A DNA stretch of 64,000 nucleotides from Candidatus Latescibacterota bacterium (GTDB lineage: Bacteria; JAAXHH01). Under the pieces are notes generated by a model. It did not search any database. It was given only the letters and a program-made list of their open reading frames with translations, and was not told where the DNA came from. Numbering within the stretch: the stretch's first letter is position 1; every line of letters starts with the position of its first letter. The stretch covers positions 1 to 64,000 of the forward strand of contig JAAXHH010000014.1 of NCBI GenBank assembly GCA_012270975.1, given 5' to 3'. This document shows positions 36,381-43,840 of this stretch, one piece after another. Position numbers and translations under genes: made by a program.

Positions 36381-38210
36381 ATGGCGGCTACCCATCGCTC
36401 TCCTTCCAGATTGTGGCCCTACCCGGTCGTTAAGGCTGAGATCGAGGACGAAGCCCTGAACCTGGCCCGGGGGTATAGATCGGGATTGGCCGATGCCAGG
36501 GCGGATGTCCGCCGCTATGGTTCCTCCGTCGATCCTGCATCGTTCCGTTTAGACGATGCCCGGGACGTGCTGGCAAAGAGTTACGGGTTCCCGGGCTGGG
36601 CACAGGTGGAACGATTCTTCCAAACGGTAGAGCGTTTTTCGCGCAGTCCCAACGTGGAACCCACGCCTCCGGACCGGTTGGACGCAAAGGAACTCGCCAC
36701 CGACTTCCTTCGTCTCGCCTGCCTGACCCAGGGTGCCCAGGATCACCCATCGAGGTGGGCGAGGGCCCGGAGCATGCTGGAGGCCCATCCGGAACTTTCC
36801 CGGGTGAATGTTTACGCAGCTGCCGGGGCCGGTGACGTTTCCGCGGTGGCTGCTTTTCTGAAAGCAAGTCCTGAACTTGCGAAGACTCCGGGCGGCCCCC
36901 ATGATTGGGAACCGCTGCTTTATGTGGCGTTTTCCCGGCTGGGCCAAGGGTCAACGGAACATTCAGCCGTCGAAGTCGCCCGGTTGCTCCTTGCACATGG
37001 CGCCGATCCGAACGCGGGCTATCTCTGGGCCGGCTTCCCGTGTCCTTACACCGCACTTACCGGTGTATTCGGCGAGGGAGAAAACGGTCCGGCCAGGTGC
37101 CCGCCGCACCGGAACTGCTATGACCTGGCGGATATCCTGATTAAGGCCGGTGCCGATCCGAACGACGCGCAGACGCTCTACAACCGGATGTTCAGCCGTG
37201 ACGACGAACACCTGCGATTCCTGTTCGCCCACGGTCTTGGAAAGGAGGGGAACCGGCCCTGGCACCGGCTGCTGGGAGAGCAGTCGCGGGGATGGGTGAG
37301 CAGCCCGGTTGATATGTTGGCCTATCAACTGCAGTGGGCCGCCCGATGGAACTACCCGCAAAGGGCGAAGTTGCTGGTCGAAAACGGGGCAGACGTAAAC
37401 CGGCCGTCCCACCGGCCTGATGCGCGATCACCTTACGGCGAGGCCATCTATCACGGGAACGAGGCCATCGTCGAGTACCTGACGGCCAGCGGCGCGAAGG
37501 CGTTCCCACTGGACGACCTGGACCGGTTCGCATGTGCATGCATCAGTGGAGACAGGGGTCGTGCCCGCGGGTTGCTCGCACGCGATCCGCTACTGATTGA
37601 AATACTTGGAGAACGCGGTAAGGCGCTCATGGAGAACGCCATAGGATCGGACAACAGGGACGCGGTCCGGCTGATGGCCGAACTGGGCTTCGACTTGAAC
37701 GCCTGTGGAATGCACGAAGCAGCTCGGTACGGCCACCTGGACATGATCAAACTGTTAATCGACCTCGGGGCGGATCCGGCTCAACGGGACGCGGGACACG
37801 GCATCGACGCAATCGGCTTTGCCAGCCACTACCAGCAGGACCACGTGATCGACTACCTGGCACAGTTTGCCGGAATACATCGGGCCGTCCAGTCTGATCT
37901 GCTGGACCGCGTTCGGGAGCTGCTGGAAAACGACCCTGCCTGCGCCCGCGAACGGGACGACGCGGGAAACACACCGCTGCACTGCCTCGACGTGGACAAC
38001 CGGATGAAAGATACGGAGGAGATACTCCGGCTGCTCGTAACGCGCGGAGCCAATGTCAACGCCAGAAACAATGAGTTCCTGACACCGCTCGACAGGCTGG
38101 AGCGTCTTGCCGGTTTCAGTCGAAGAGACGACCTGGCCGAACAGCTGCGCGGGTACGGAGCCGTGGCATCAGATGCCGCCGACCTGTCGAAGGACCAACC
38201 GGCGTCCTGA
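36381..38210 (+). CDS. ankyrin repeat protein with N-terminal 'ARDVLAKSYGFPGWAQVE' module
   Basis: LLLAHGADPNAGYLWAG; LIKAGADPNDAQTLYNRMF; LLVTRGANVNARNNEFLTPLDRLE. Confidence 0.92.
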   Translation: MAATHRSPSRLWPYPVVKAEIEDEALNLARGYRSGLADARADVRRYGSSVDPASFRLDDARDVLAKSYGFPGWAQVERFFQTVERFSRSPNVEPTPPDRLDAKELATDFLRLACLTQGAQDHPSRWARARSMLEAHPELSRVNVYAAAGAGDVSAVAAFLKASPELAKTPGGPHDWEPLLYVAFSRLGQGSTEHSAVEVARLLLAHGADPNAGYLWAGFPCPYTALTGVFGEGENGPARCPPHRNCYDLADILIKAGADPNDAQTLYNRMFSRDDEHLRFLFAHGLGKEGNRPWHRLLGEQSRGWVSSPVDMLAYQLQWAARWNYPQRAKLLVENGADVNRPSHRPDARSPYGEAIYHGNEAIVEYLTASGAKAFPLDDLDRFACACISGDRGRARGLLARDPLLIEILGERGKALMENAIGSDNRDAVRLMAELGFDLNACGMHEAARYGHLDMIKLLIDLGADPAQRDAGHGIDAIGFASHYQQDHVIDYLAQFAGIHRAVQSDLLDRVRELLENDPACARERDDAGNTPLHCLDVDNRMKDTEEILRLLVTRGANVNARNNEFLTPLDRLERLAGFSRRDDLAEQLRGYGAVASDAADLSKDQPAS

Positions 38211-40305: not shown

Positions 40306-41826
40306 ATGCCGTCCCTGCCTTCCCCTCCCGATATACGCCATCTCAGGTTGCAGGCGAAAACGCTTCTGAAGTCTGCGCGCAGCGGCGAAGAGCATGCCGT
40401 CGACAGAATCCGGTCGGCCACTGGAGATCGTCGTGACCGTCTCGTGCTGTCGGACGCCTATCACGCCATCGCCCGGGAACATGGATTCAGGTCCTGGCCC
40501 CACCTGAAGATCCACCTCGAAATCGCTGCCCGGAACCTGGACGAGAAGCGGGAGATGTTTCTGTCCTCGGCCTGGCTTTGGGGTGATCGAAAACGCGCCG
40601 AGGCCGTGCTCGAATCGGCGCCAGAACTCGTCCGAGGAGATCTCCACGCCGCCTGCGCCGCCGGAGACTTGGATGCCGTCACAGACATCCTGGAGACCGC
40701 TCCCGCCGCGGCCACGACGAAGGGCGGCCCGAAGAACTGGACCCCGATCCTCCACGCGTCGTGGTCCTGTTTTCTATCCGAGCAAACCGACGCCATGGTC
40801 CGCATCCTGGAACTGCTCCTGCAGCACGGCGCCGATCCGGACAGCTACTGGGTGAATGATGACGACTGGAAGGAGTCGGCCCTATACGGATGCGTGGAAA
40901 ACAACTGCGTGCCGGCGGCCCGGGTGCTGGTGGACGCGGGCGCCGACCCCAACGACAACGAATCCCTGTACCACGCCTGCGAGAAATTCAACCTGGAACT
41001 GCTGGATACGGTCGCGGCGAACGGGCTGGACGCGGAAGCTGTTTCCTATTGCATCAAGCACGTCATGGATATGAACTGGACCGATGGGATCATGTGGTTT
41101 CTCGACCAGGGCGCCGATCCCAACGCCATCCATCCCGCCGACGGGGAAACGTCCCTGCACTGGGCCGTAAAGAGAAACAACACGGTCGAAGTGATCGGCG
41201 CGCTCCTGGAGGCCGGGGCAGACCCCAACGCCCGCACCTCGACCGGGAAGAGTACGGCGCTAGGGATCATCGGCCGGACGCCGCTTGATTTCGCCCTGCG
41301 GCTCGGTCGCGGGGAGGTCGCGGCGCTCCTCAGGCGGCATGGCGCTGTGCCGTCCCCCCTGTCCGAATACGATCGCTTTGTCGTCGCGTGCGCCAATACG
41401 GATCTCGAAACCGTGGAGCAGTTGAAAGACCGGCACCTGACCGACTTGACCGACGACGACCGGACCCTGATCAGCCACGTGGCCCAGGTGGACAACTGGG
41501 CCGCGGTGCGTCTCATGGCGGACCTGGGCTGGCCGGTGGACGCCGGGGGCTGGATGGATGCAACGCCCCTCTACTGGGCCCTGTGCAAGGGAAATCCCGA
41601 AATGGTCGACTTCCTTCTCCGGAGGGACGTCTCCACCGAGCCCATCGGCGGCTATTTTCAGGATCCGATCCACGCCGTGATCCACTGCCAGTGGAATGGG
41701 GACAGGGGCGGATACCCCGTCGCCCTCGGCCTGTTGCTCGACCACGGTCTCGGCGTTCCGGAAGGACACTATCCCAGTGGCAACGCCGCCATGGACGCGG
41801 TACTGGCGCAGTACATCGAGGACTGA
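40306..41826 (+). CDS. ankyrin repeat protein with N-terminal 'HLRLQAKTLLK...HGFRSWPHLK' module
   Basis: RBS gaaggaggttcc; LLLQHGADPDSYWVNDDDW; ALLEAGADPNARTSTGKSTALGIIGRTPLDFALRLGRGEVAALL. Confidence 0.93.
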   Translation: MPSLPSPPDIRHLRLQAKTLLKSARSGEEHAVDRIRSATGDRRDRLVLSDAYHAIAREHGFRSWPHLKIHLEIAARNLDEKREMFLSSAWLWGDRKRAEAVLESAPELVRGDLHAACAAGDLDAVTDILETAPAAATTKGGPKNWTPILHASWSCFLSEQTDAMVRILELLLQHGADPDSYWVNDDDWKESALYGCVENNCVPAARVLVDAGADPNDNESLYHACEKFNLELLDTVAANGLDAEAVSYCIKHVMDMNWTDGIMWFLDQGADPNAIHPADGETSLHWAVKRNNTVEVIGALLEAGADPNARTSTGKSTALGIIGRTPLDFALRLGRGEVAALLRRHGAVPSPLSEYDRFVVACANTDLETVEQLKDRHLTDLTDDDRTLISHVAQVDNWAAVRLMADLGWPVDAGGWMDATPLYWALCKGNPEMVDFLLRRDVSTEPIGGYFQDPIHAVIHCQWNGDRGGYPVALGLLLDHGLGVPEGHYPSGNAAMDAVLAQYIED

Positions 41827-42355: not shown

Positions 42356-43840
42356 ATGAAACGTGACGATGATATCCTGCTCATCTCCTGCTATGAGCTG
42401 GGCCATCAGCCCTTCAGCCTGGCCTCCCCCGCCGCCCGCCTGAAGTCCGAAGGATACGCCGTCTCTGTCGTCGATGCCGCGATCGAACCGGTCCCGGAGG
42501 ATATCGTACGCCGGGCCGGCTTCATCGGCATCTCGGTGCCCATGCATACGGCCATGCGGGTCGGGATGGATCTGTCGCGCCGCATCCGGAACCTCAACCC
42601 CGGCGCGCATCTTTGCTTTTACGGACTCTATGCCGCCCTGAACGCCGAGTATCTCCTGTCCCACGGGGCCGACTCGGTGATTGGCGGAGAATTCGAACAG
42701 CCGCTTTGCGACCTGGTCGGGAGGTTGTGCGGCGGCGAGGAACCGTCAGCGGCGGGCGGAGGCCCCTCGTCGACCGGGGATCCCTCGTCGGCCGGGGATC
42801 CCGCATCGGCCGGCGGTGCGGCTACCACCCCGTATCTCTCCCGCCAGTCCTGGTTGGTCCCGGACCGCGATACGCTGCCCGGGCTGAAGCGGTACGCCCA
42901 GCTGGACAACGGCATTGAATCACTTCCCGCCGGTTACAGCGAGACCACGCGCGGCTGCCTGCATACCTGTCTGCACTGCCCGATCACGCCGGTGTACAAC
43001 GGCCGGTTCTTCGCCGTGCCCGCCGACGTGGTGCTTGCCGACGTGGAACAGCAGGTGCGCATGGGCGCGCGTCATATCACCTTCGGGGACCCGGATTTTC
43101 TGAATGGCCCCACCCACGTCCTGCGTATCTTGCGCAGGATGAGCGACGTCCATCCCGGCCTCACCTTCGATTTCACTACCAAGATCGAACACATCCTCCG
43201 GCACCCGTCCTTTTTCCCGGAAGCGCGGGACCTGGGCGGCATCTTCGTCGTATCGGCCGTGGAATCGGTCAGCAACCTGGTGCTGGAGCGTCTCAGGAAA
43301 GGACACACCCGCGACGACGTCGTCCGGGCCCTAGCCATCCTGCGCGACGCGGACCTGCCCATGCGGCCCTCGCTGGTGGCCTTCACGCCCTGGACTACTC
43401 TGGATGATTACCTGGATCTGCTGGATTTCGTCGAAGTCCACGACCTGGTCGACCACATCGACCCGGTACAGTACACCATCCGCCTCCTCGTACCACCGGG
43501 GTCGGCCCTGCTGGCCGAAGCGGATACCCGTTTATGGATCGGCGAACTGGATGAAGCGGGGTTCACCTACGCCTGGCGCCATGACGATGCGCGCATGGAC
43601 CGACTGCATCAACGGGTTTCCCGTCTCGTGGAGGAAGCGGACGCATCGGGAGAGGAAAGGGACAACCGGAGGGTATTCCACCGGATCCGGTGCCTGGCGG
43701 CGGAAGCGGCAGGCGTCGAGGCGCCTGCGGAGCAGCCTTTCCATGACATCCCGCTCAAACGGCGTCGCGTCCCCCGGCTGACCGAAGCCTGGTTCTGCTG
43801 AGCGGAGCCCACGGCGAGCCGGAAAGGCTCGTTCATCTGA
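42356..43840 (+). CDS. cobalamin-binding/radical SAM protein, probable selenoprotein of the CUAEP-tail type; TGA at 43799-43801 read as Sec
   Basis: N-terminal B12-binding-like domain; YSETTRGCLHTCLHCPITPVYNG (CxxxCxxC); frame through TGA: W F C U A E P T A S R K G S F I stop (TGA 43838-43840); downstream bSECIS-like hairpin. The ORF track ends at 43801. Confidence 0.82.
42764..42817 (+). repeat. in-frame 18-bp minisatellite (3 units) inside the radical SAM gene
   Basis: ccctcgtcgaccggggat / ccctcgtcggccggggat / cccgcatcggccggcggt encoding PSSTGD-PSSAGD-PASAGG. Confidence 0.85.
43813..43833 (+). promoter_or_regulatory. bacterial SECIS-like stem-loop for UGA recoding
   Basis: CGAGCC (43815-43820) - loop GGAAA (43821-43825) - GGCTCG (43826-43831), extendable by two G.U pairs; 19 nt lie between the UGA and the loop; first two loop bases are G. 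Confidence 0.75.

Follow-up and report, generated by a model that had tools for sequence, protein, structure and literature searches.

The window, a stretch of 64,000 nucleotides from a Candidatus Latescibacterota assembly (contig JAAXHH010000014.1), carries a radical SAM gene whose frame runs on beyond the stop codon at which gene calling ends it (Table 1). From the ATG at 42356 this frame is open to a TGA at 43799-43801 and then meets no further stop until a second TGA at 43838-43840. The letters at the gene end read tggttctgc-TGA-gcggagcccacggcgagccggaaaggctcgttcatc-TGA, exactly as the first-pass annotation had described them when it reported a TGA inside the frame with a W-F-C-U-A-E-P continuation, and the C-terminus in the frame of ATG 42356 would be ...VPRLTEAWFC-U-AEPTASRKGSFI-stop.

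Table 1. Features of the radical SAM gene, in window coordinates
Feature	Position	Strand	Remarks
Radical SAM (predicted seleno)protein gene, NF040546 rSAM_CUAEP	42356..43840	+	494 residues including predicted Sec482; ATG to second TGA
N-terminal B12-binding-type domain PF02310, residues 9-120	42380..42715	+	34.6 bits vs cut-off 32.1
Radical SAM CX3CX2C motif, Cys201/Cys205/Cys208	42956..42979	+	invariant in alignment; PF04055 48.6 bits
Cys481, invariant partner in the predicted Cys-Sec pair	43796..43798	+	invariant column, 52-row alignment
In-frame TGA, predicted Sec482, after Cys481	43799..43801	+	relatives: TGA in 48/48 with a stop here, Cys in all other forms
C-terminal tail AEPTASRKGSFI, dropped by standard gene calling	43802..43837	+	
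SECIS-like hairpin	43814..43832	+	7-bp stem GCGAGCC/GGCUCGU; register as in relatives, compensatory changes
True stop codon (predicted)	43838..43840	+	TGA here; TAA in several congeners

Against NCBIfam NF040546 the extended protein scores 681.9 bits (curated cut-off 500 bits), the match covering residues 7-489 and so crossing the TGA to reach into the AEP tail. The family name that the first-pass annotation had given, 'CUAEP/CCAEP-tail radical SAM (seleno)protein', is that of this real entry and fits the protein. Both features of the family—the C-[C/U]-A-E-P tail near the C-terminus and the CX3CX2C radical SAM motif—are present, and with the same C-U-A-E-P tail the protein shows no difference at the family level. 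It departs from other members only after AEPT, where it has ASRKGSFI in place of the commoner xxQ(F/L); the RNA hairpin encoded in this region is conserved, whereas the peptide is not. A Pfam search of the extended protein returns a Radical_SAM domain and a B12-binding-type domain.

The 80 named relatives have record labels of Latescibacterota or Gemmatimonadetes, Poribacteria, Nitrospirota, Planctomycetota, Acidobacteria, Elusimicrobia, Chloroflexi, Actinomycetota and Deltaproteobacteria, and their readable tails conserve the motif W-F-C-[C or TGA]-[AS]-E-P across many phyla. Cys or TGA stands at exactly the column of the window's TGA, as the first-pass annotation had expected of homologues; its view that a chance match around a stop would be very unlikely is likewise borne out by this conservation and by the NF040546 profile, which itself spans the TGA into the AEP tail. 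Judged on sequence, the W-F-C-TGA-A-E-P arrangement is far beyond chance. Pooling the Sec forms among these relatives with 12 more from the order of Aciditerrimonas gives a set of 48 sequences from at least four phyla with a stop at the Sec column; one candidate, L138 (G097), which has an internal TGA but lacks the motif in the frames read, was excluded. The internal stop is TGA in 48/48, whereas the terminal stops of the same genes are mixed (20 TGA, 17 TAA and 11 TAG), which is a very strong argument against ordinary termination or sequence decay. Within the window's phylum the gene occurs in 13 of 16 genomes, and every copy contains a single internal TGA. A tree of 95 proteins, some of its rows long-branched, needs about nine switches between Sec and Cys, and its well-supported branches alone force at least three such changes.

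The first-pass annotation had also held that standard gene callers would lose the tail, and an instance of this is found in a cultured thermophile. The CDS TRD_RS12835 of Thermomicrobium roseum DSM 5159, already named for the family, stops at ...RLTESWFC, but at its locus in NC_011961.1 (L143:6953-8431) the DNA goes on with TGA-GCG-GAG-CCG, and the hairpin follows in the same register. TRD_RS12835 is a likely Sec form, and as T. roseum is cultured, the selenocysteine claim can be tested there. Thus, a gene cut short by standard annotation is set right in the window, and the same error is located in the public record of a cultured strain.

The predicted hairpin starts 12 nt after the TGA codon and has a loop of 5 nt (GGAAA, 43821-43825), the first nucleotide of which lies 19 nt after the TGA. 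The bSECIS model describes a loop of 3–9 nt placed 16–37 nt from the UGA with a G in its first two positions, a stem of 4–16 bp and an energy of at most -7.5 kcal/mol (PMC13188914); the window hairpin agrees with it on these points, the isolated hairpin having -12.2 kcal/mol. When the 47 nt starting at the window's TGA are folded at minimum free energy, a competing structure is preferred, and the fold is not unusual (z -1.38). Among the Sec forms of several phyla the register of the hairpin is free of gaps while the encoded peptide differs (ASRKGSF vs EGQFAPI). Across 22 diverse sequences, 86% of the cells are paired and 28 are compensatory, with a covariation of 0.544 as against 0.246 in shuffled alignments and at most 0.165 in slid ones, and the G at loop position 2 is invariant. 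Pairing in the 5-bp core reaches 4.64/5 in Sec forms as opposed to 2.44/5 in Cys forms, from which, by predicted pairing, the hairpin is absent. The Sec forms also vary: Poribacteria have a core stem of just 4–5 bp, and their isolated hairpins mostly fall short of the -7.5 kcal/mol limit; in L136 a mismatch adjoins the closing pair.

The machinery for selenocysteine, which the first-pass annotation had named as a touchstone of its reading, is present in full in the window's assembly, a metagenome-assembled genome (MAG) of 4.06 Mb in 160 contigs (98.3% complete, 5.7% estimated contamination): selA, selB and selD score over their cut-offs, and selC (70.6 bits), which ARAGORN identifies as tRNA-SeC with anticodon tca, adjoins selB on contig C96. 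Among the relatives, selB over cut-off accompanies 21/23 Sec-form genomes and 6/27 Cys-form genomes (Fisher p = 8e-7, kinship ignored); the two Sec-form genomes in which it was not found, L024 and L054, are draft MAGs, and its absence there probably reflects their incompleteness.

Two other readings of the TGA may be weighed against these observations. Were it an ordinary stop, with the AEP continuation a fossil of a Cys-form ancestor, one could account for the gene callers ending the CDS here, including in the T. roseum record, and for the unremarkable RNA fold of the window's 47 nt; however, the tail has been kept behind the TGA in all 48 sequences, with TGA as the sole stop used, compensatory changes are seen in the hairpin and the Sec machinery is complete, so that this reading is very improbable. 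A reassignment of TGA to Trp or Gly in the host would by itself be compatible with a single in-frame TGA, but TGA ends 6/9 of the window genes checked, the internal TGA aligns with Cys in relatives and never with Trp or Gly, and selC, whose anticodon is tca, is identified as a tRNA-Sec; for practical purposes, reassignment is refuted. That TGA 43799-43801 is a selenocysteine codon is therefore strongly supported by comparison, from which we infer the insertion itself. Under this selenocysteine reading, SelB and tRNA-Sec(UCA) would decode the TGA, directed by the hairpin downstream, and the product would be a radical SAM enzyme that begins with a B12-binding-type domain and ends in a tail bearing a Cys-Sec pair.

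Across phyla, the family has a recurring partner in the form of an ATP-grasp enzyme with an L-amino acid ligase C-terminal domain (LAL_C2), the gene for which directly follows that of the radical SAM enzyme in Nitrospirota, is located downstream of it in Planctomycetota and immediately precedes it in Actinomycetota and several Chloroflexi. Nearly end to end, the profile of this partner matches BL00235 (3vot), an L-amino acid ligase of solved structure, at 2e-66; the partner forms an orthologous group of its own. The ortholog is single-copy in 14/14 tested carriers, including genomes where it is unlinked, and in the window's genome it lies unlinked at C105:21970-23274 (L114:6956-8299, minus strand). 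The association can be quantified in 298 genomes of one actinobacterial order, of which 73 have both genes and 218 have neither, with the radical SAM gene standing alone in 1 and the ligase in 6; the ligase thus occurs in 73/74 carriers of the radical SAM gene vs 6/224 non-carriers (p = 3e-61, kinship ignored). Within the window's phylum, G013 is without either gene, the ligase alone is present in G014 (85% complete), and G006 (87% complete) carries the radical SAM gene but no ligase. A genome of the same genus as the window's, G007, is without the radical SAM gene and retains only a partial ATP-grasp ortholog at C4:326394-327053, a state looking like joint loss.

Other genes recur less regularly. 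A gene for an NfuA-like Fe-S carrier is present in 42/94 loci and DUF169 in 30/94, these counts coming from a seed search that replaced a clustering in which NfuA-like genes had been mixed with antisense ORFs in the GC-rich DNA. Though linked in 30 loci, DUF169 is rejected as an obligate partner: it is missing from the window's genome and hence not essential. The flanks of the window gene—coding for an Fe(2+) trafficking protein, ankyrin-repeat proteins and the proteins P0002/P0003—were likewise rejected as partners, since beyond the lineage they were not seen to accompany the family. Two ankyrin-repeat proteins are encoded upstream (36381-38210 and 40306-41826, plus strand), and close genomes have relatives of them in the same position. 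P0002 and P0003 (43868-45067 and 45072-46265, both on the minus strand) are adjacent, related proteins of about 400 aa, which match nothing in Pfam or NCBIfam and keep their place next to the radical SAM gene in close relatives. Near the unlinked ligase at C105:21970-23274, genes for an M32 carboxypeptidase and a DUF6785 protein are seen in the window's lineage; these, along with PriA and TPR proteins, were set aside as lineage-specific and as pointing to no common function.

In light of these patterns, it is very probable that the TGA is read as selenocysteine and that the enzyme is functionally coupled to the ATP-grasp ligase; this coupling rests on genomic co-occurrence; the chemistry is inferred. 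NCBIfam already catalogues the family, which has been little studied, together with its possible selenocysteine. The 2026 inventory of prokaryotic selenoproteins does not list the family, nor was it found in the literature searched, with an earlier description possible in the papers of Haft on new selenoprotein families. What is new here is the near-obligate tie of the CUAEP family to one ATP-grasp ligase, which provides a handle on the family's function, while the repeated switching between Sec and Cys makes the value of selenocysteine in a radical SAM enzyme testable.

As to that function, the AlphaFold2 model of the protein has a mean pLDDT of 89.8, with low confidence only at an insert (133-155) and at the C-terminal tail, and the predicted tail with its Cys-Sec pair is probably mobile. 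Among solved structures the nearest folds are those of AprD4, OxsB and TsrM (TM 0.56–0.65 by query length), radical SAM enzymes with a B12-type N-terminal domain that are alike in predicted fold but only 13–17% identical. We know of no Cys-Sec tail in AprD4, OxsB or TsrM. These folds, together with the B12-binding domain scoring above its cut-off and the NfuA-like carrier gene, are consistent with a cobalamin-type radical SAM methylase or rearrangement enzyme, in which the Cys-Sec tail would supply electrons or resolve an intermediate in the making of a cofactor or redox molecule. However, cobalamin binding is a prediction from the domain, and a fold alone does not tell the reaction; such an enzyme is a plausible candidate to which we would give slightly less than an even chance.

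A different parallel is offered by ArsL of arsinothricin biosynthesis (NF040542), the second-best named family at 311.1 bits with 413/423 positions aligned. ArsL has been proposed to transfer the 3-amino-3-carboxypropyl group of SAM onto arsenite (PMC8552651). The window protein is not a member of that family, its score falling below the cut-off of 450 and the RCCLKC tail being absent; nevertheless, the two are 31–35% identical over 86% of the query, and both families have a Cys pair at the end and ATP-grasp genes. On the Priestia and Pantoea plasmids, ATP-grasp genes lie beside the ArsL genes (L144:687-1910 and L145:5569-6771), pointing to possible further processing of arsinothricin by a ligase. 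Since ArsL is the nearest named relative and shares the Cys pair and the adjoining ATP-grasp gene, it is proposed that the product of the CUAEP enzyme is coupled by the ligase: the enzyme would make a non-standard amino acid within a biosynthetic pathway and the dedicated ligase would join it with a further amino acid or acid. The Cys-Sec (or Cys-Cys) pair, for which the Cys-rich RCCLKC tail of ArsL provides a parallel, could bind a soft acceptor (a metalloid or thiol) or feed electrons back into the active site, a redox role and a metal- or metalloid-binding role being rated equally.

That the chemistry itself is ArsL-like, with the ligase then coupling the product, is suggested by this nearest-family score and the shared gene pairing, but is unlikely given the sub-threshold match, the different tail motif, the distance between the two ATP-grasp groups (about 20–25% identical over most of their length) and the surroundings of the CUAEP genes, beside which no arsM, arsR or other arsenic genes were seen. 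More broadly, one might tentatively envisage a widespread, as yet undescribed pathway, in many lineages comprising the CUAEP enzyme and ATP-grasp ligase together with the NfuA-like carrier and DUF169, that has switched repeatedly between Sec and Cys and yields a peptide-like product built on a non-standard amino acid, which might carry a metalloid or selenium; as a whole this picture is speculative, and in it the pathway would be a distant sister of arsinothricin biosynthesis. At the level of the radical SAM enzymes, the CUAEP protein and ArsL are homologous over the whole body, and each has a C-terminal Cys or Cys-Sec pair and an ATP-grasp gene nearby in at least some genomes, whereas the CUAEP protein is set apart by its other tail and a longer C-terminal region.
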